A program made the position numbers and the translations under genes. The notes beneath the pieces were generated by a model. It was not told where the DNA came from, did no database searches, and worked only from the letters and a program-made list of their open reading frames with translations. From Solirubrobacterales bacterium (GTDB lineage: Bacteria; Actinomycetota; Thermoleophilia; Solirubrobacterales; JACPNS01), in contig JACPNS010000012.1 in the NCBI GenBank assembly GCA_016185345.1, positions 1 to 64,000 on the forward strand: DNA of 64,000 bases. Direction: 5' to 3'. Below are positions 49,564 through 60,604 of the stretch, piece by piece (position 1 is the first letter of the stretch; the number at the start of each line of letters is the position of its first letter).

Positions 49564-50546
49564 TCCTCGCGATCGAAACATCCTGCGACGACACATGCGC
49601 CGCGGTTGTGACCAGCAAAGGCGAAGTCAGATCGAACCTGATCGCCTCGCAGATGGAGCACGACCGCTTCGGCGGCGTCGTGCCCGAGGTCGCATCGCGA
49701 CGGCACCTGGAGTTGCTCGACGGTGTGGTGAGCGCCGCACTCGCCGACGCGGGTGCGACGCTCGATGAAATCGATGCAATCGCCGTGACGCGCGGACCGG
49801 GTCTGATCGGAACTCTGCTCGTCGGCTTCTCGTATGCGAAGGCGCTCTCGGCCGCCGCCGGCAAGCCGCTGATTCCGGTCGATCACCTCCAGGGCCACGT
49901 CTCGGCCAATTTCTTGGAGCCCGACCCGTTCGAGGCGCCCTTCCTCTGCCTGGTTGCGAGCGGCGGCCACACATTCCTCGCAAAGGTCACTGAACGCGAG
50001 GGCTACGAAGTGCTCGGCTCGACCGTCGACGACGCGGCGGGGGAGGCCTTCGACAAGGGCGCGCGGTTGCTTGGACTTGGCTACCCCGGCGGGGCTGCGC
50101 TCGACGCCCTCGCAAAGCATGGCAACCCGAAGGCCCACGACTTCCCGCGCAGCTATCCGGGCGAACTCGACTTCTCGTTCAGCGGCATCAAGACTTCGTT
50201 GCTCTACAGGCTCAGGGCATTGCCCGAGGGCGAGTTCGAGAACGCCAGGGCCGATTTCGCAGCCGGCTACCAGGCTGCGGTCGTCGAGATGCTCGTCAAG
50301 CGCGTGGAGAAGGCGATAACGGTCACGGGAATCAATCGCGTCGCAATCGGCGGGGGCGTCGCGGCAAACTCGCAGCTGCGCGATCAGATACGCGCTGTCG
50401 CGACCGACGTGAAGGTTCCGCCGCGCGAGTACTGCACCGACAATGCAGCGATGATCGGCGCCGCCGCACTGAACAGGCGCGAGGGCCCGCTGAGTGACTT
50501 TGCGGCATTGGACGCGTATCCCTCGGGTCAGCCGGCACCTTCCTGA
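49560..50546 (+). CDS. tsaD: tRNA N6-adenosine threonylcarbamoyltransferase TsaD
   Basis: TsaD transfers the threonylcarbamoyl group to A37 of ANN-decoding tRNAs. The 328-residue ASKHA protein starts MILAIETSCDDTCAAVV and has the metal-binding HLQGHVSANF (two His), LVASGGHTFL, GEAFDKGARLLGLGYPGG and GGGVAANSQLR. Length is normal. ATG 49560 lies inside the rimI stop. TsaC is not in the window. Confidence 0.96.
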   Translation: MILAIETSCDDTCAAVVTSKGEVRSNLIASQMEHDRFGGVVPEVASRRHLELLDGVVSAALADAGATLDEIDAIAVTRGPGLIGTLLVGFSYAKALSAAAGKPLIPVDHLQGHVSANFLEPDPFEAPFLCLVASGGHTFLAKVTEREGYEVLGSTVDDAAGEAFDKGARLLGLGYPGGAALDALAKHGNPKAHDFPRSYPGELDFSFSGIKTSLLYRLRALPEGEFENARADFAAGYQAAVVEMLVKRVEKAITVTGINRVAIGGGVAANSQLRDQIRAVATDVKVPPREYCTDNAAMIGAAALNRREGPLSDFAALDAYPSGQPAPS

Positions 50547-50800
50547 TGCCCGCGCGGATCACGATCTACGGCCGCCCTGACTGTCACCTCTGCGACGACG
50601 CCGAGGCGCTTGTTGCGGATCTTGTGGCCGGCAGCGGCGCGCTGATCGAAGTGGTCAACATCGAACACGACGATGAGCTGCACAAAGAAATGCTTGAAGT
50701 GATCCCGGTGATCGAGCTGAACGGCAACCGAATCTCCAAGCTGATCGAGTACCGAGGCGATCGCTTCGCCGAAGCCGTGCGCGAGGGCTTGATCAATTAG
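50546..50800 (+). CDS. Glutaredoxin-like protein (DUF836)
   Basis: The 84-residue protein has a thioredoxin fold with the active-site CHLC (Cys13 and Cys16 in YGRPDCHLCDDAEA) and the cis-Pro in VIPVIELNG. These small proteins are thought to act in thiol redox exchange. Its start shares one base with the tsaD stop (TGATG), and rex follows after 27 bases. Confidence 0.85.
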   Translation: MPARITIYGRPDCHLCDDAEALVADLVAGSGALIEVVNIEHDDELHKEMLEVIPVIELNGNRISKLIEYRGDRFAEAVREGLIN

Positions 50801-50827: not shown

Positions 50828-51502
50828 ATGCCTCCTTCTCAGCCGAAAAAAACTTCAGCCAGTCAAGCCGCCCCAGGGCTCGATGGCGAACGGCTCTCGC
50901 TTGGCGTTGCGGCGCGGCTGTCGCGCTACCTCCAGGTTCTGACGCAGGCCAAAAAGATGGACAAGGACAAGATCAGCTCGCAGGAGCTGGCGCGATTCAC
51001 CCATGTGAATCCCACGCAGATCCGCCGCGACCTCTCGGGCTTCGGCAAGTTCGGCAAACGCGGGGTTGGCTACAACGTTGATTTTCTGATCGAGCAGATC
51101 CGCGCGATCCTCCACACCGCCGCGAAGTACAACATCGCGCTATTTGGAGCCGGACACCTCGGCAAGGCGATCGCCGGATCCGAAGTCTTCGCCGACCACG
51201 GCTTCGAGATCAAGGCCGTTTTCGACAACGACGCCAAGAAGGTCGGCACGCTGTGCGGGGACAAGGAGGTGATGCCCGCGGCGGACCTGCGCCAGACCGT
51301 GATCGACGAGGAAATCGTCGTCGGCGTCATCGCAGTGCCCGCCGTCGCGGCACAGCCCGTCGCGGATGAGCTCGTTGCTGCAGGCGTGACGATCATCTTC
51401 AACTACACCGACCGCCTGCTGGATGTGCCGCAGGAAGTCACCGTGCACACGTCGAGCCCGGCCGTCGACCTGCTCTACGCGCTCTACTTCTATCTGGCCT
51501 AG
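50828..51502 (+). CDS. rex: Redox-sensing transcriptional repressor Rex
   Basis: Rex senses the NADH/NAD+ ratio and represses fermentation and respiratory genes. The 224-residue protein has an N-terminal winged helix (LSRYLQVLTQAKK; NPTQIRRDLSGFGKFGKRG) and a Rossmann domain (LFGAGHLGKAIAG, FDNDAKKVG), ending with the swapped C-terminal helix LYALYFYLA. No TTGTGAA-N4-TTCACAA operator was seen near it. It lies between a thioredoxin-fold protein and a carboxylate-amine ligase, a redox-themed group. Confidence 0.95.
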   Translation: MPPSQPKKTSASQAAPGLDGERLSLGVAARLSRYLQVLTQAKKMDKDKISSQELARFTHVNPTQIRRDLSGFGKFGKRGVGYNVDFLIEQIRAILHTAAKYNIALFGAGHLGKAIAGSEVFADHGFEIKAVFDNDAKKVGTLCGDKEVMPAADLRQTVIDEEIVVGVIAVPAVAAQPVADELVAAGVTIIFNYTDRLLDVPQEVTVHTSSPAVDLLYALYFYLA

Positions 51503-52692: not shown

Positions 52693-52812
52693 ACTGGCCA
52701 ACGCTTCCCGGGGAAAGATGCGTTTTGGGCGCAAAAGCGATGGACAAATTCACTCGGATCGCCCCGTACGGGAGCTCCAATTCCACTTGATCCGTTATGA
52801 AAGGTGTCGGTC

Positions 52813-54918
52813 TTGACTGACTTTCTGAATGAAAATGGGGTCGTCGTTGCGCTGATCAGCGCGCTCGTCGCCGTTGTTTACGGGATTTTGAACACGCGTT
52901 CGCTGCTCAAACTCTCTCCGGGCAACGAGAAGATGCAGGACATTTCCAAGGCGATCCAAGAGGGCGCCAGCGCCTATCTCAACCGGCAGTACTCATCAAT
53001 TGCGATCGTCGGCATCATCGTCGCTGCGATTCTCGCGCTGATTCCGGATCTCGGCCCTTCGGTCGCGATCGGTTTCATCATCGGCGGTGTTTCGTCGGCC
53101 GCGGCCGGGTACATCGGTATGAATGTCTCGGTGCGCATGAACGCCCGCGTGGCCGAATCCGCGCGCGGTGGCATCAGTCCGGCGCTCGACACCGCATTCC
53201 GCGGTGGCGCCGTGACCGGAATGCTCGTCGTCGGGCTCGCCCTCTTCGGAGTGGCCGCCTACTACGGCATCCTGACCTGGCTGTTCGACTTCTCCACTCG
53301 TGATGCGATCGACGCACTCGTCGGTCTCGGATTTGGTGGATCGCTGATCTCCGTGTTTGCACGACTGGGCGGCGGAATCTTCACCAAGGGTGCCGACGTC
53401 GGCGCTGACATCGTCGGCAAGATCGAGGCCGGCATCCCCGAGGACGACCCGCGCAACCCGGCCGTGATCGCCGACAACGTTGGAGACAACGTCGGAGACT
53501 GCGCCGGCATGGCCGCTGACCTGTTCGAGACCTACGCGGTCACGCTCGTCGCAGTCATGCTGATCGGGGTCCTGACCTTCTCGGTCGACGAGAACGCTCC
53601 GCGTGCTGCGCTCTACCCGCTGGTCCTTGGTGGCGTTTCGATTCTCGCCTCCGTGATCGGTTCGTTCTTCGTGCGCACCAAGAGCGGAAACGTCGAAGGC
53701 GCGCTCTACAAGGGCGTCGCAGTCGCAGGCGTCATCGCCGCTGCAGCGTTCTACCCGGTGACCAACTGGATGATGGGCGACATCGCCGTCCTCTCGACGA
53801 TCACCGAACCAGTCCCCTCCGTGTTTGCGCTCTGGGTCTGCACGCTCGTCGGGCTCGCAGTAACCGGCCTGATCTTCGTGCTCACCGATTACTACACCTC
53901 GACGCGCTTCAAGCCGGTCAAGAGCATCGCTGAGGCATCACAGACCGGTCATGCAACCAACATCATCGCTGGCCTCGCAGTTGGTTTCCGTTCGACGGCC
54001 GCTCCGGCGCTCGTGTTCGTGATCGGGATTATCGCCAGCTACAACGTCGCTGGTGGCGGAGATGTCGGAATCTACGGAATCGGCGTCGCCGTCATGGCAA
54101 TGCTCTCGCTCTGCGGACTGATCGTCGCGCTCGACGCGTTCGGTCCGATCACCGACAACGCCGGTGGAATCGCCGAGATGGCAGACATGCCCGAAGAAGT
54201 TCGCGCCGTCACCGACCCGCTTGACGCCGTGGGTAACACCACCAAAGCCGTCACGAAGGGCTACGCAATCGGTTCAGCAGTTCTGGCCGCGATTGTGCTG
54301 TTCGCAGCCGTCAAGGCCGAACTTCCGACCGCGAGCGCGGACATCTCGTTCGCGATCGACAACCCGTCAGTCCTTTCCGGTCTTCTGATCGGTGGCGTCA
54401 TGGTCTATCTGTTCGTCGCATTCGCGATGCAGGCAGTCGGCCGCGCCGGTGGCGCAGTCGTCGAGGAAGTCCGTCGCCAGTTCAAGGAGAACCCCGGCAT
54501 CATGGATGGCTCGGTCAAGCCCGAGTATGGCCAGTGCGTCGACATCGTCACCAAGGCCGCTCAGCGGGAGATGATCATCCCGGCGCTGATCCCGATCATC
54601 GGAACCGGCATCGTCGGCGTGTTCGCCGCGATCTGGAAGGTCAATGGACTGTTGATGCTCGGTGGCCTGCTGATGGGCGTGATCGTCGTCGGTCTGTTTG
54701 TCGCGATCTCCATGACCAATGGTGGTGGAGCCTGGGACAACGCCAAGAAGTTGATCGAAGATGGTGCATACGGCGGCAAGGGTTCAACCGCCCACGAGTC
54801 ATCGATCACCGGTGACACCGTCGGTGACCCGTACAAGGACACCGCCGGCCCGGCGATCAACCCGATGATCAAGGTGGCGAACATCGTCGCGCTGCTTATC
54901 ATTCCGCTGATCACCTGA
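52813..54918 (+). CDS. hppA: Membrane-bound proton-translocating pyrophosphatase
   Basis: HppA hydrolyses PPi and pumps H+ (or Na+). The protein of about 701 residues has about 16 membrane helices. The PPi site is visible in [22 protein letters not shown] (split by the Mg-binding Asp residues) and [34 protein letters not shown] carries Lys where K+-dependent enzymes have Ala, so this should be K+-independent, usually an H+ pump. The TTG start at 52813 is chosen because AAAGGTG lies 6 bases upstream; GTG 52804 has no such site. Confidence 0.96.
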
Positions 54919-54955
54919 GACAAGTGACCGGGGAGACACTTAGTTCCATTTGCAC

Positions 54956-54984
54956 TTGACTTGTGCGATGAAACCGGGTATCGT
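54956..54984 (+). promoter_or_regulatory. Near-consensus promoter downstream of hppA
   Basis: TTGACT (54956-54961) and TATCGT (54979-54984) are separated by 17 bases, the best sigma-70-type promoter seen in the window. Transcription should start near 54991-54992 and run into the terminator at 55042-55078. Confidence 0.65.
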
Positions 54985-54991
54985 TCGCCTC

Positions 54992-55078
54992 GGCTTTTCA
55001 CCCCGGTGACGTGTTGGGGGACACATCACCATCGTGTTACAAAAGGTCGCTCCGAAAGGGGCGGCCTTTTTCTTTTTT
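54992..55078 (+). ncRNA. Candidate small RNA of about 87 nucleotides
   Basis: The stretch between the promoter and the terminator has no coding frame of note but strong structure. GGTGACGTGT and ACACATCACC (55005-55030) form a ten-pair hairpin with one mismatch and a TGGGGG loop; the terminator hairpin follows. The CACCCC just before the first stem could pair with the G-rich loop. The next gene has its own -10 at 55109, so this looks like an independent RNA. An attenuated leader for that gene is the other reading. Confidence 0.45.
55042..55078 (+). terminator. Rho-independent terminator
   Basis: AAAGGTCGCTCC (55042-55053) pairs with GGGGCGGCCTTT (55058-55069), including G-U pairs, around a GAAA loop. 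TTTTTCTTTTTT follows. Confidence 0.85.
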
Positions 55079-55108
55079 GCGGGACGCGCCTGACGCCCGG
55101 TCCGGGCA

Positions 55109-55114
55109 TACACT
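55109..55114 (+). promoter_or_regulatory. Possible -10 element for the first APC permease
   Basis: TACACT ends 9 bases before the ATG at 55124, and no ribosome-binding site is seen between. Confidence 0.4.
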
Positions 55115-55123
55115 TCCGCGCTG

Positions 55124-56989
55124 ATGGCAGAGCGCCGACCAAAGACCCATTCGCTCGAACGCGTCCTCGGCACTGGCGCGCTCTTCAGCACCGCCTACGG
55201 GAACGTCGGCAGCTCGATCTACTACGCGTTGGGCCTGGTCGCGGCCTTCGCCGCCGGCATGACCCCGCTCGTCTTCGTGATCACGGGCATCATTTTCTTC
55301 TTCACCGCCGCGACGTACATCGAGGGCACAACGATGTTCCCGGAGGCCGGCGGCTCGAGCTCTTTCGCGCGCCATGCCTTCAACGAGTTCTGGTCGTTCT
55401 TCGCTGCTTGGGCCCAGATGCTCAACTACATCATCACGGCAGCGATCAGCGCGTATTTCGTGCCGCACTACCTCGGCGTCTTCTGGGAGCCGCTGAAAGA
55501 AGCCCCGTGGGACATTGTCTTCGGCATCGGTGTGCTCGTCGTGCTGGGCATGCTGAACATCTTCGGGGCCGAGGAGTCGGCGAACGTCAACATCGTGCTT
55601 TCGCTCGTGGACTTCGCTACGCAGGTGCTGCTCGTGATCCTCGGCCTTTTCCTTGTCTTCAACGCAGACCTGCTGATCGGTCAGGTCGATTTCGGCACTG
55701 CGCCAACCGTCGAGAATTTCCTCATCGCAATCCCAGTCGGGATGGTTGCCTATACGGGCATTGAGACGATCTCCAACCTGGCCGAGGAGGCCAAGGACTA
55801 TGAGAAGACCGTGCCAGCCGCCGCGAAGCTCGTCGTCGCAGCAGTGTTCGCGATCTACCTCTTTCTGCCGGCGATCGCGCTCAGCGCGATGCCCGTCAAC
55901 GCAGCAGGAGCGACCGAGCTGGGAACGACATATGCCGGTGACCCCGTGCTCGGCATCGTCAAGAACATGGGACTCGGCTCATTCGAAAACGCAGTCGAGA
56001 TCTACGTCGGAATTCTCGCGGCGACGATTCTGTTCATCGCGACCAACGCCGGCATCATCGGTGTCTCGCGACTGACCTACAGCATGGGGCAGTATCGGCA
56101 GGTGCCTCAAGCGCTGCGCTCGCTGCACCCCAAGTTCAAGACGCCGTACATCGCGATCATCGTCTTTGGCACTATCGCCTGCCTAGTGATAGTTCCCGGG
56201 CAGGCCGAGTTCCTCGCGAAGCTCTATGCCTTCGGCGCGCTGCTGAGTTTCACGATCGCGCACGTATCGGTGATCAAGATGCGGCTCGACCTGCCGATCC
56301 GGCAGAGGCCGTGGCTCGGGCCGCTCAACGTGCAGTTCCGCGACAGGTCCTGGCCGCTCTTCGCTTTCATCGGCGGTGCGGGAACGTTCATCGCCTGGGT
56401 CGTCGTGACCGCGCTGAATCCGTCAACACTCGTTTTCGGCGTTTTCTGGATGGTCGCGGGAGTGCTCTTCTACGTCTTCTACCGCCGTAGCCAAGGGCTG
56501 GGTCTGACGGTCACCAACAAAATCGTCGCGCCGAAAACAATCGTCGACCACGACGTCGAATACGACTCAGTTCTCGTCGTCTTCGAAGACGGAATCTATT
56601 CGCAGGAGGCCGTGCGAACGGCCGTCAAGATGGCGACGCGCCGCCGGCGTGGGATTCACGTCCTGGTGACGATAAACGTCCCGGCAAACGCGCCGATCGC
56701 TGCGGTGCTTCCGACGGCCGAATCAAAGGCAGCGTCCGTGATCGAGCGTGCGCGTGTGTTGGGCGGGCGCCGCGTCACCGGTCACTGGGTGAAGGTGCGT
56801 TCCGGCGAGGCCGGCAGCCGCATCGTGCACGAAGCCAATGAGATCAACGCCCGCGCGATCGTCTTCCCGCTCAAGCCAGACCTGTCGGGGTCGCTGTTCT
56901 CGCCTGCCGTGCAGAAGGTCCTGGCCGCGCGTCCGTGCCGAGTGATTCTTACGTCTGATTCCGCAGAGAAGTCTGCGCCGGTGCGATGA
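55124..56989 (+). CDS. APC-superfamily permease with C-terminal UspA-like domain (1)
   Basis: The 621-residue protein has about 12 membrane helices (to about residue 450) of the amino acid-polyamine-organocation fold. GALFSTAYGNVGSSIYYALG is the first broken helix and PEAGGSSSFARHAFNEFW follows. A cytoplasmic UspA-like domain follows from about residue 475 (YDSVLVVFEDGIYSQEA ... PCRVILTSD). This architecture is found in amino-acid transporters and in KimA-like K+ importers. With two TrkA-type proteins nearby, K+ transport is a fair guess, not shown. The stop overlaps the next small gene. Confidence 0.85.
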   Translation: MAERRPKTHSLERVLGTGALFSTAYGNVGSSIYYALGLVAAFAAGMTPLVFVITGIIFFFTAATYIEGTTMFPEAGGSSSFARHAFNEFWSFFAAWAQMLNYIITAAISAYFVPHYLGVFWEPLKEAPWDIVFGIGVLVVLGMLNIFGAEESANVNIVLSLVDFATQVLLVILGLFLVFNADLLIGQVDFGTAPTVENFLIAIPVGMVAYTGIETISNLAEEAKDYEKTVPAAAKLVVAAVFAIYLFLPAIALSAMPVNAAGATELGTTYAGDPVLGIVKNMGLGSFENAVEIYVGILAATILFIATNAGIIGVSRLTYSMGQYRQVPQALRSLHPKFKTPYIAIIVFGTIACLVIVPGQAEFLAKLYAFGALLSFTIAHVSVIKMRLDLPIRQRPWLGPLNVQFRDRSWPLFAFIGGAGTFIAWVVVTALNPSTLVFGVFWMVAGVLFYVFYRRSQGLGLTVTNKIVAPKTIVDHDVEYDSVLVVFEDGIYSQEAVRTAVKMATRRRRGIHVLVTINVPANAPIAAVLPTAESKAASVIERARVLGGRRVTGHWVKVRSGEAGSRIVHEANEINARAIVFPLKPDLSGSLFSPAVQKVLAARPCRVILTSDSAEKSAPVR

Positions 56990-57165
56990 ACATGCGCAAC
57001 GTGAAAATCATCCTCTTTGTGGCGATCTTCGCGCTTGGCCTCGCGACGATCATCGTCACACTGGCCAACGGCGGCACGCTCACCTCGCGTGGGATCCTCT
57101 TCGGCGGAATTCTCTGCGCAATGGCCGCGCTCCGCATCTTCCTGGCGCTCAAACACAACGCCTGA
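56986..57165 (+). CDS. 59-residue two-helix membrane protein
   Basis: The product starts MNMRNVKIILFVAIFALGLA and has two hydrophobic helices (about residues 7-26 and 37-55) with a short polar turn NGGTLTSRG, ending LKHNA. Both ends are fixed by overlaps: ATGA with the first APC gene and TGATG with the second. Such tight coupling between two related transporters suggests an accessory subunit. I do not recognise a named family. Confidence 0.7.
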   Translation: MNMRNVKIILFVAIFALGLATIIVTLANGGTLTSRGILFGGILCAMAALRIFLALKHNA

Positions 57166-59342
57166 TGTTTCGCCGAGTGACAAATCTCGTTCGCTTCGGG
57201 CCGATGTCGACGATCGGCGCGGGTGCGCTGTTCATGGTCGTCTACATCGCCGCGGCGTCATCGCTGTATTTCGGGCTGGGGCTGATTGCGGAGCAGAGCC
57301 TGGGTCTAACGCCGGTGGTGATGGTGCTCGGCGGCGTCTTCTTCGTTTTCACCTTCATGTCGTACGTCGAGGGCTCCTCGCTGCACATCGAGCGGGGCGG
57401 CGCCTCCTCGTTTGCGCGCTACGCCTTCGACGAGTTCGTCAGCTTCATCGCGGGCTGGGCGATCCTGCTCGACTACGCGATCGTCCTTGCCCTGGTCGCG
57501 GCGACGGTGCCGAACTACCTCGCTGTTTTCTGGGGCGGGTTCGACAGCCGCGCGGGCGAGATGCTCATCCCTGTCGCGTTGATCCTCGTGATGACGTGGT
57601 CGAACATCCGTGGCGTCAGCGCGCAGACGCTGCGCCGTCGGCTGCCGCTTGGCTGGATCGACCTGATCGTCCTGCTGACGATCATCGTCATCGGTCTGTT
57701 TGTGCTCTGGAATCCCTCGGTGCTGACAGACCGTTGGGACCACGGCGGCGCGCCGACCTGGCACAGCCTGTTCATCGCTCTGATCCTCTCCACGGTCGCC
57801 GGCACCGGCATCGAGTCGGCATCTGGGCTCGCAGGGGAGATCAAAATCGGTCGCCGCGAGCTGAGGTCGGTCGTCTGGTCGAGTACGTCTTCGACGATCA
57901 CGATCTTCACGGGCATCTCTGTCATCGCACTGATGGCAGATCCATTGATCGGTGGGCCCGGCGCGTCATCGACGTCGATAGCTACGCAGTATGTGGAGAG
58001 CCCGGTCGTTGGCGTTGTCCGCGGTTTCGATCCTTCGTGGCTTGCGAGTGCTTTGGCGTATGTGGTCGGCGTCGTCGCCGTTGTCACGCTGGTCCAGGCA
58101 TCGCGCATCTACGTGCTCGGACCGATGCGCGTGACATACGCGCTTGCAACCAACCGCCAGGTGCCGAGCGCGATCGGCCGACTGCACCCCAAGCATGGAA
58201 CCCCGTACGTCGCCGCCACCGCAGTTGCGCTGGTTTCGAGCGGCCTCGCGCTGCTCGACAACCCCGAGCTGCTGATCGCGATCTTCGCGTTTGGCGCGCT
58301 GCTGACGTTCTCGATCGCAAACCTCTCGATCATCCGCCTGCGCTTCTCTGAACCAGACGCCGCGCGTGCTTACCGTGTGCCGTTCTCGATCCCGATCGGC
58401 AAGGGCTCGATCCCGTTGCCGTCCCTTGTCGCGCTGCTCGGCTCGGTCGGCGCGTTCATCGGCGTGATCGCCCTGCGCCCGACGGCGACGATCGTCGGCG
58501 GTACCTGGCTGGCGCTCGGCATCGCTCTTTATGTGACCTACCGCAAAACGCAGGACAAGCCGTTGCGCGGACGAGTCACGATCCCCGAGGAAGACCTCAA
58601 GCGCCGCTCGGCGCGCGACACGGCCAAGGAAGGTTTCGGATCGATCCTCGTTCCGGTCTTCGGCGGCGTGCTCGACGACGACATCATCGGCACCGCGGGC
58701 CGCTTGGCGATGGAAGAGGGCGACGACGAGGAGGGCGCGATGATCGAGGCGCTGCACGTCATCGAGATCCCGATGTCGCAACCGATCGACGCGCCGGTCC
58801 CGGTCGAGCGCCTGACCCGCGCGCGGAAGATCCTTGCTCGCGCCAAGGAGGTCGGCGAGGAGTACCAGGGCGTTGAAGTGGCGACTGCAACTGTTCGCGC
58901 ACGTTCGACCGGCGAAGCGATCGTCAAGGAAGCCTCGCGGCGCGGGGTGGAGGTGATTGTGCTGGCGGCGGAGCGCCCGTCGCGCATCCGCGGTGGACCA
59001 CTTTTGGGCGGGGTCGAGCCCCGCGCGGCCGAGTTCATCGGAAAGGTCACCGAGTACGTGGCGCGCAAGGCGCCCTGCCGCGTGATCCTGACTGCGCCGC
59101 CCGAGACCGACGTTGAGGCGCTCGCGACTTCGATCGCTGCCAACCCGCACGTCTCCGAGGACTTCGCAAAGCAAGAGGCAGAGCGGCTCGCGCGCATGAA
59201 GGGTGTCACCGAGGAGCACAGCGCGATCGACCCGGGCGTTGCCCACCCGACCGATGCGGCGCGCCCGCACGAGCAAGAGGCCGATCACCGCGCGGTGGCT
59301 GACGATGAGGATCCGGACGACTTCATTGACACGATTGCATGA
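57165..59342 (+). CDS. APC-superfamily permease with C-terminal UspA-like domain (2)
   Basis: The 725-residue paralogue of the first permease shares the layout. About 12 helices come first: GAGALFMVVYIAAASSLYFG, then SYVEGSSLHIERGGASSFAR, TGIESASGLAGEIK and YALATNRQVPSAIGRLHPKH. A UspA-like domain follows (about 490-645: FGSILVPVFGG ... PCRVILT). An extra acidic, His-containing tail (about 650-725) follows that. Sequence divergence from copy 1 suggests different substrates or a heteromer. It starts in the stop of the 59-residue gene. Confidence 0.85.
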   Translation: MFRRVTNLVRFGPMSTIGAGALFMVVYIAAASSLYFGLGLIAEQSLGLTPVVMVLGGVFFVFTFMSYVEGSSLHIERGGASSFARYAFDEFVSFIAGWAILLDYAIVLALVAATVPNYLAVFWGGFDSRAGEMLIPVALILVMTWSNIRGVSAQTLRRRLPLGWIDLIVLLTIIVIGLFVLWNPSVLTDRWDHGGAPTWHSLFIALILSTVAGTGIESASGLAGEIKIGRRELRSVVWSSTSSTITIFTGISVIALMADPLIGGPGASSTSIATQYVESPVVGVVRGFDPSWLASALAYVVGVVAVVTLVQASRIYVLGPMRVTYALATNRQVPSAIGRLHPKHGTPYVAATAVALVSSGLALLDNPELLIAIFAFGALLTFSIANLSIIRLRFSEPDAARAYRVPFSIPIGKGSIPLPSLVALLGSVGAFIGVIALRPTATIVGGTWLALGIALYVTYRKTQDKPLRGRVTIPEEDLKRRSARDTAKEGFGSILVPVFGGVLDDDIIGTAGRLAMEEGDDEEGAMIEALHVIEIPMSQPIDAPVPVERLTRARKILARAKEVGEEYQGVEVATATVRARSTGEAIVKEASRRGVEVIVLAAERPSRIRGGPLLGGVEPRAAEFIGKVTEYVARKAPCRVILTAPPETDVEALATSIAANPHVSEDFAKQEAERLARMKGVTEEHSAIDPGVAHPTDAARPHEQEADHRAVADDEDPDDFIDTIA

Positions 59343-59400
59343 CCAATCTCGTCGCTATCGGGTCACCAACTCGGACTTGGCTTAGGTATGCGGGATCCAG

Positions 59401-59433
59401 TCCACAGTATGCCCCGCCGGGATCGACTGTGGA
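59401..59433 (+). repeat. Inverted repeat upstream of the TrkA-type genes
   Basis: TCCACAGT (59401-59408) and ACTGTGGA (59426-59433) are perfect 8-base arms separated by 17 bases. They lie about 45 bases before the trkA start. An operator or a mRNA hairpin are both possible. Confidence 0.45.
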
Positions 59434-59464
59434 TGACCAGGCCCCCATCCCGATTTCCCCTGAG

Positions 59465-59470
59465 TAACCT
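59465..59470 (+). promoter_or_regulatory. -10 element for the leaderless TrkA-type gene
   Basis: TAACCT ends exactly 7 bases before the ATG at 59478, identical to the uvrB hexamer. Confidence 0.5.
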
Positions 59471-59477
59471 CCAACCC

Positions 59478-59927
59478 ATGTTCGTATTGATCGTTGGCTG
59501 TGGGCGCGCGGGAAGCGCATTGGCAAAGAATCTGCTCGAGGACGGTCACACCGTTTCGGTGCTCGACGAGAGCGCTGAGTCGCACCGTCTTCTGGATGTT
59601 GGTCTTGAGACCAACTGGGAGGACGAGGGCGGGATGTTCACCGTCGGAACAGCACTGGAGATCGACGCGCTGGTCGAGGCCGGCATCGAGCGCGCCGACG
59701 CATTCGTGGCCGGCACCAACGGCGACAACACGAACCTTGTGATCGCGCAGATCGCACAGAAGAAGTTCAACGTCCCCAAGGTCGTCGTCCGCGTGCTCGA
59801 CCCGCGCCGCGCCACCTGGTACTCCGAGCAGGGTCTGCACACGATCTGTCCGACCCAGGCCGGCATCGAGATGCTCACGGCCGCAGTCCGCGGTGAAACC
59901 GAAGTCGTACTCACGGAGCAGATCTAG
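59478..59927 (+). CDS. TrkA-N (RCK) domain protein 1
   Basis: The 149-residue protein is a single RCK N-domain with the nucleotide-binding FVLIVGCGRAGSALAKNL and the second-strand acidic residue in SVLDES, then FVAGTNGDNTNLVIAQIA. It lacks a TrkA-C domain. RCK proteins bind NAD(H), ATP or c-di-AMP and gate K+ channels or transporters. The next gene is a full-length relative, and the two may form mixed rings. The start at 59478 is set by the -10 box; an in-frame upstream start is not supported. Confidence 0.88.
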   Translation: MFVLIVGCGRAGSALAKNLLEDGHTVSVLDESAESHRLLDVGLETNWEDEGGMFTVGTALEIDALVEAGIERADAFVAGTNGDNTNLVIAQIAQKKFNVPKVVVRVLDPRRATWYSEQGLHTICPTQAGIEMLTAAVRGETEVVLTEQI

Positions 59928-59929
59928 CC

Positions 59930-60604
59930 ATGTACGTGATTGTCGCCGGCGGCGGAAAGGTCGGATTGAACCTCACGCGTGAGTTGATGGCCAAGGGCCA
60001 CGAGGTAACCCTGATCGAGAACAACCGTCGGCGTTACACGATCCTTGAGCCACAGCTCGAGCACGTCGTACACCTAGGTGACAGCACCGAGCTCTGGGTC
60101 CTTGAGCGCGCCGGCATCGAGCGCGCCGACATGGTCATCGCCGTGACCGGCGACGACGAGGACAACATCATCATCGCCCAGGTCGCGCGCGAAAAGTACG
60201 GTCGCGACAAAATCATCGCGCGCTGCAACAACATCCGCAACATGGAGCACTTCGACCTTCTGAACATCAGTCCGGTGATCAGCTCTACAGATCTGATCCT
60301 CCGCCTGATCGAGCATGAGGTGCCGCAGTACGGGCTGGTCCACCTGCTCAAGCTGCAGGCCGAGGACCTCGAGATCATCGAGGTCGAAGTCGGCATCGGC
60401 TCAATTGCTGCGGGTAAGACCGTCGGCGAGATCGACCTTCCCGAGGGCGGCTTGATCATCGCGATCCTGCGCGAGGGCGAGGGCATCGTTCCGGGCGGCG
60501 ACACGATGATCAACACTGGCGACGAAGTCATGCTGATCCTCAACCCGGGCCTCGAAGACGACATCACGCGTCTGTTCACGGCGTCTGAAGAGTCCTTCGC
60601 CTAG
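59930..60604 (+). CDS. TrkA-type K+ uptake regulator (RCK N and C domains)
   Basis: The 224-residue protein has the N-terminal MYVIVAGGGKVGLNLTREL Rossmann motif with TLIENN, AVTGDDEDNIIIAQVA, and a TrkA-C domain (about 140-220; VGIGSIAAGKTVGEIDLPEG ... DEVMLIL). TrkA-C often binds c-di-AMP in Gram-positives. It follows the single-domain protein by 2 bases. No TrkH/KtrB channel gene lies here. The two APC-UspA permeases upstream are the nearest transport partners. Confidence 0.9.
   Translation: MYVIVAGGGKVGLNLTRELMAKGHEVTLIENNRRRYTILEPQLEHVVHLGDSTELWVLERAGIERADMVIAVTGDDEDNIIIAQVAREKYGRDKIIARCNNIRNMEHFDLLNISPVISSTDLILRLIEHEVPQYGLVHLLKLQAEDLEIIEVEVGIGSIAAGKTVGEIDLPEGGLIIAILREGEGIVPGGDTMINTGDEVMLILNPGLEDDITRLFTASEESFA

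Follow-up and report, generated by a model that had tools for sequence, protein, structure and literature searches.

Between hppA and the gene of an APC-family permease, the window (the whole 64,000-nucleotide stretch of contig JACPNS010000012.1 analysed here) has a promoter-like sequence, a hairpin and a terminator in close succession. Does this unit make an RNA of its own, or does it control the transporter gene that comes after it? A sequence-only reading had preferred an independent small RNA and offered a riboswitch-like attenuator as the alternative. Comparison with related genomes leads us to think that the unit is probably an ordinary young small regulatory RNA gene and not a transporter switch. 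The unit lies 3' of hppA in the intergenic stretch at 54919-55123, between the following genes.

52804-54918, + strand: hppA, membrane H+/Na+-translocating pyrophosphatase (Pfam H_PPase, 839.6 bits; NCBIfam PRK00733)
55124-56989, + strand: APC-family permease with C-terminal Usp domain (AA_permease_2 + Usp), a neighbour outside the unit

An hppA gene adjoining an APC-Usp gene is a frequent arrangement across the order, and the pair is usually followed by another APC-Usp gene in tandem, which is 33-37% identical to the first one. In the window, the APC-Usp genes are followed by two TrkA-domain genes, and the content of 52804-60604 suggests an ion- or amino-acid-transport cluster.

The proposed promoter, TTGACT-N17-TATCGT, is present where it had been placed, with a spacer of 17 nt between its boxes.

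54956-54961, + strand: -35 box TTGACT, within a block identical at 12 of 12 positions in the sister genome G001
54979-54984, + strand: -10 box TATCGT, within the block AAACCGGGTATCGTTCGC (54971-54988), identical at 18 of 18 positions
54952-54966, + strand: inverted repeat GCAC-TTGACTT-GTGC with the -35 box at its centre; the sequences of both species fold there

As a promoter match this site scores 9/12. There are two such sites in 6 kb compared with 1.0 +/- 1.1 in shuffles, and the window contains eleven 9/12 sites when spacers of 15-19 are allowed. The claim that this is the best promoter in the window did not hold, since it ties with the other ten. By itself the promoter match is weak evidence, no better than chance; on the sequence comparison, what raises the unit over chance is its conservation in a sister genome. 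The promoters of RNase P and tmRNA, used as controls, have TAGAAT/TAGACT-like -10 boxes and no clear -35 box at 17 nt, so they do not speak for or against the TATCGT box.

When 61 relatives were searched at the DNA level, the unit turned up once more, at the same place in a genome of the same genus (G001, contig JAEMSX010000002.1, a Thermoleophilaceae metagenome-assembled genome). The two carriers are uncultured actinobacteria and close relatives. The hppA products of this genome and of the genome studied here (G000) are 95% identical, and fourfold-degenerate sites agree at 63% in hppA and 52% in the APC permease gene. Identity is 58-68% for flanking non-coding bases, with 68% in the adjacent 3' UTR and 15 of 26 positions past the terminator. 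Within the unit, identity occurs in blocks: 12/12 at the -35 box (54951-54962), 0/8 in the spacer (54963-54970), 18/18 over the -10 box and its flanks (54971-54988), 11/11 at 54994-55004, 7/10 and 8/10 in the arms of the hairpin stem, 6/6 in its loop, 8/8 in ATCGTGTT (55031-55038) and 28/30 in the terminator. The whole unit is identical at 72 of 88 positions. The binomial P of this is 9e-5 if 63% identity is expected and 0.003 if the 68% seen in the 3' UTR next to it is expected. Among simulated sequences, a fraction of no more than 5e-5 had four or more stretches of 12 or more identical bases within 125 positions. Because block limits were set after viewing the alignment, these statistics serve as guides. 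The promoter spacing is 17 nt in both species although the spacer bases at 54963-54970 do not match at any position, and spacing that is kept while its sequence is not is what a promoter predicts. Judged by this comparison, the unit is real and under selection.

The identical 18-base block reaches well past the -10 hexamer, and a bare promoter does not explain this extension. The sister genome has a shifted dyad, GCACT-TGACTT-AGTGC, with the promoter spacing unchanged; the inverted repeat at 54952-54966 is a possible operator.

From a sigma-70-type promoter of this kind, transcription would start near 54991 and give an RNA with the following parts.

54991-55078, + strand: predicted small RNA of about 85 nt, its start placed 6-8 nt past the -10 box; same fold in both species
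54994-55004, + strand: 5' segment CTTTTCACCCC, identical at 11 of 11 positions and for the most part single-stranded; candidate seed for base pairing
54999-55036, + strand: weak outer clamp around the hairpin, CAC (54999-55001) with GTG (55034-55036), in the minimum-energy fold of both species
55005-55030, + strand: hairpin GGTGACGTGT-TGGGGG-ACACATCACC, 26 bases; loop identical in G001, stem paired in both species
55041-55078, + strand: intrinsic terminator, common to the unit and hppA; 28 of 30 identical in G001

The hairpin at 55005-55030 and the terminator after it had thus been located correctly. The stem has 10 pairs (55005-55014 with 55021-55030) around the loop TGGGGG (55015-55020), and the strong terminator consists of a stem-loop at 55041-55070 and a T tract to 55078. 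The predicted RNA (88 nt) folds at -36.7 kcal/mol, with z = -4.4 versus shuffles, and the terminator is the main cause of this value; the first 50 nt, before the terminator, are unremarkable when folded alone (z = -0.6). The RNA of G001 has the same minimum-energy fold (z = -5.3). A coding reading of the hairpin (frame GTG ACG TGT TGG GGG ACA CAT CAC CAT..., with His codons) was rejected. This open frame crosses the terminator and is not conserved as a protein, most codon differences between G000 and G001, as read from the alignment, being amino-acid-changing. What the two species share is a predicted structured transcript with a common fold and without coding constraint.

The G-rich loop had also been proposed to pair with CACCCC just upstream. 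Four C-G pairs can be drawn on paper, but CCCC ends at 55004 and abuts the stem base at 55005 with no linker, so that it cannot reach the apical loop while the 10-pair stem is intact. On this geometry the contact is implausible within one molecule, and an intramolecular pseudoknot was discarded. A contact between two molecules is conceivable; the homodimer is predicted to be more stable than a pair of separate monomers by only about 3-4 kcal/mol.

The stems of G000 and G001 differ as follows: a G-C pair has changed on both sides and is C-G in G001, an A-U pair is G-U there, and a C x A mismatch of G000 is replaced by a G-U pair. In the sequence comparison, maintenance of stem pairing by selection across these changes is suggestive only; the covariation score, from one pair in two sequences, was reached by 236 of 500 shuffles. 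The sequence-only reading had looked to relatives for conservation and covariation: the former was found in one sister species, but the latter was not above the shuffle control.

These stem changes also bear on control at the level of DNA, where the inverted repeats would be operators for a repressor or activator and there would be no functional short RNA. Such a role fits the dyads at 54952-54966 and 55005-55030 and the extension of identity over 18 of 18 bases at the -10 box, but in the large dyad the two half-sites have changed together, pair by pair and with G-U pairs, while its asymmetric centre, TGGGGG, is invariant. Operators usually do the opposite, with half-sites conserved rather than the centre. 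The terminator, moreover, comes directly after the large dyad, and we regard DNA-level control as very improbable.

The invariance of the GGA-containing loop would equally suit a decoy in which UUGGGGGA exposes GGA to titrate CsrA, a protein for which each of the genus's five genomes has a gene. However, three CsrA-bearing congeners lack the unit, and each RNA has one GGA and no ANGGA, compared with the several GGA in loops expected of a sponge. Known CsrA sponges carry many sites. It is extremely doubtful that the RNA acts in this way.

We then considered the gene downstream, which appears to have a promoter element of its own.

55109-55114, + strand: TACACT, the APC gene's own -10 box, which ends 9 nt before the ATG, with a predicted near-leaderless transcript; similar boxes in relatives

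Relatives across the order have TAGACT, TAGAAT, TAGCTT and like boxes at about equal distance, so the separate -10-like box that the sequence-only reading noted for this gene is conserved. Leaderless genes, of which Actinobacteria have many, are marked by a TANNNT box some 12 nt ahead of the start codon (PMC3160421). By comparison, a cis-acting attenuator or riboswitch would make the unit a distal second promoter of the APC-Usp gene, with the hairpin or a ligand deciding passage through the terminator. The unit does have the layout of such a device, a promoter followed by a structured leader and then a terminator ahead of a transporter gene, and its hairpin and loop are conserved. Against this, three congeners have the APC gene without the unit (the gene is kept in 58 of 61 genomes, the unit in 2), nothing similar was found in 299-399 genomes of the class, there is no Rfam match and so no described aptamer family, and a conserved TAnnnT box precedes the ATG of the APC gene by 9 nt. 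No antiterminator pairing shared by G000 and G001 was found between the leaders and the terminator arms; the best pairings differ between the two species and, at -8.6 to -12.6 kcal/mol, are far weaker than the terminator stem at -20 to -23 kcal/mol. Because the APC gene has its own box, because no antiterminator is shared and because congeners have the gene without the unit, attenuation is unlikely, and we give little credence to a transporter switch. By contrast, the earlier view that the unit is independent of the downstream gene is borne out by the block-wise conservation, the kept 17-nt spacer, the kept fold and the separate APC box.

Fluoride, ZTP and preQ1 riboswitches are transcriptional riboswitches of the pseudoknot type. 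The unit is like these in having a compact hairpin directly before an intrinsic terminator and complementary C and G runs. It differs in that it has no Rfam match, its hairpin and terminator do not overlap, there is no linker for the loop contact, and it is not conserved with the downstream gene.

To place the origin of the unit, we compared the congeners. In three of these (G002-G004) hppA and the permease gene are adjacent with only hppA's terminator between them, and this terminator, directly after hppA, is related to that of the unit. The promoter and hairpin therefore sit before a pre-existing terminator. Either the lineage of G000 and G001 gained the unit or other lineages lost it, and its absence from the outgroup genomes favours a gain. 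Wider searches for relatives of the hairpin, as had been suggested, returned the same-place copy in G001 but no further convincing match, neither with a covariance model in 151 genomes of the order and 399 of the class nor, in 299 genomes of the class, with a pattern that allowed as many as 3 mismatches. Model matches in G327, G265 and G177 (E 0.05-0.9) were rejected as chance-level, and the alignments in G327 and G265 are without the core. Exact patterns were also looked for in 84,980 species genomes and in viral contigs; besides the G001 contig, every match was without the surrounding unit and without a model score. Phage and plasmid searches matched only the terminator or short stretches, and Rfam had no match at gathering level in the whole window and only chance-level ones locally at E up to 10.

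The shared terminator raises the possibility that the unit is simply the structured 3' end of the hppA mRNA, which would stabilise the message or mark it for processing, with the promoter boxes incidental and a cut RNA able to accumulate. The unit indeed ends at a terminator orthologous to the hppA terminator of congeners. However, the best-conserved parts take in the two promoter blocks, -35 and -10, with their exact spacing, all upstream of the hairpin. In addition, G000 and G001 share a fold for the RNA predicted from the promoter but not for the long 3' UTR. We consider this explanation improbable, if somewhat worth keeping in mind.

Together, the block conservation, the 17-nt spacer and the common fold support the small-RNA reading of a predicted RNA, and we think it likely that the unit encodes a small, lineage-specific sRNA that starts from a promoter of its own, ends at the terminator of hppA and pairs in trans. 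The transcript would form the hairpin with its G-rich loop and end at the intrinsic terminator that also closes the hppA mRNA. Many sRNAs pair through their 5' end. This RNA, too, would act by base pairing in trans probably through its 5' end, and the likeliest pairing part would be the invariant segment CUUUUCACCCC, with the G-rich loop as a second contact. The complement of this segment, GGGGUGAAAAG, resembles a Shine-Dalgarno sequence with A-rich bases, as in a ribosome-binding site. Counted against this reading are the limitation to two carriers, the lack of Hfq (which was not found in the genus), the lack of a shared seed site, and the 18-base block past the -10 box. Exact complements of two candidate seeds gave no site common to G000 and G001 except the RNA locus. 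Exact 10-base complements are rare, with three in G000 and two in G001 besides the locus itself. One match in G000 (C22:4246-4255, minus strand), GGGGTGAAAATG, is the full complement of part of the 5' segment and lies at the start of an acyltransferase-like open frame; it has no exact counterpart in G001.

Some sRNAs of mRNA 3' ends start from their own promoter and use the terminator of the mRNA (PMC9438474). The unit resembles these in its position after a coding gene, its own (predicted) promoter, the shared intrinsic terminator, the short hairpin and the conserved single-stranded 5' segment. It is unlike them in that its promoter comes after the stop codon whereas theirs is inside the gene, Hfq is absent here, and the RNA here is predicted. 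In Vibrio cholerae, MicX is made from its own promoter in a 3' UTR, a locus that in relatives yields an sRNA by processing (PMC9438474); the likeness to the unit, in a different phylum, is in this arrangement of an own promoter at a 3'-end locus and implies no sequence relation. A limited literature search found no papers on small RNAs of Thermoleophilia. If expressed, the unit would be a clean case of sRNA birth beside a terminator that was already there, with congeners that still show the arrangement without it; the general picture of regulation would stay as it is. A more specific version is tentative and rather doubtful: a young sRNA gene soon after birth, in one Hfq-less lineage of Thermoleophilia, which gained promoter and hairpin before the hppA terminator and whose Shine-Dalgarno-blocking 5' end would link pyrophosphate-driven ion pumping to mRNA translation.

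Elsewhere in the window, a gene for a Rex-like redox repressor (Put_DNA-bind_N and CoA_binding domains) is at 50828-51502, beside a glutaredoxin-like gene at 50546-50800. At 644-667 a strong hairpin resembling a terminator has T tracts on either strand and is probably a bidirectional terminator.
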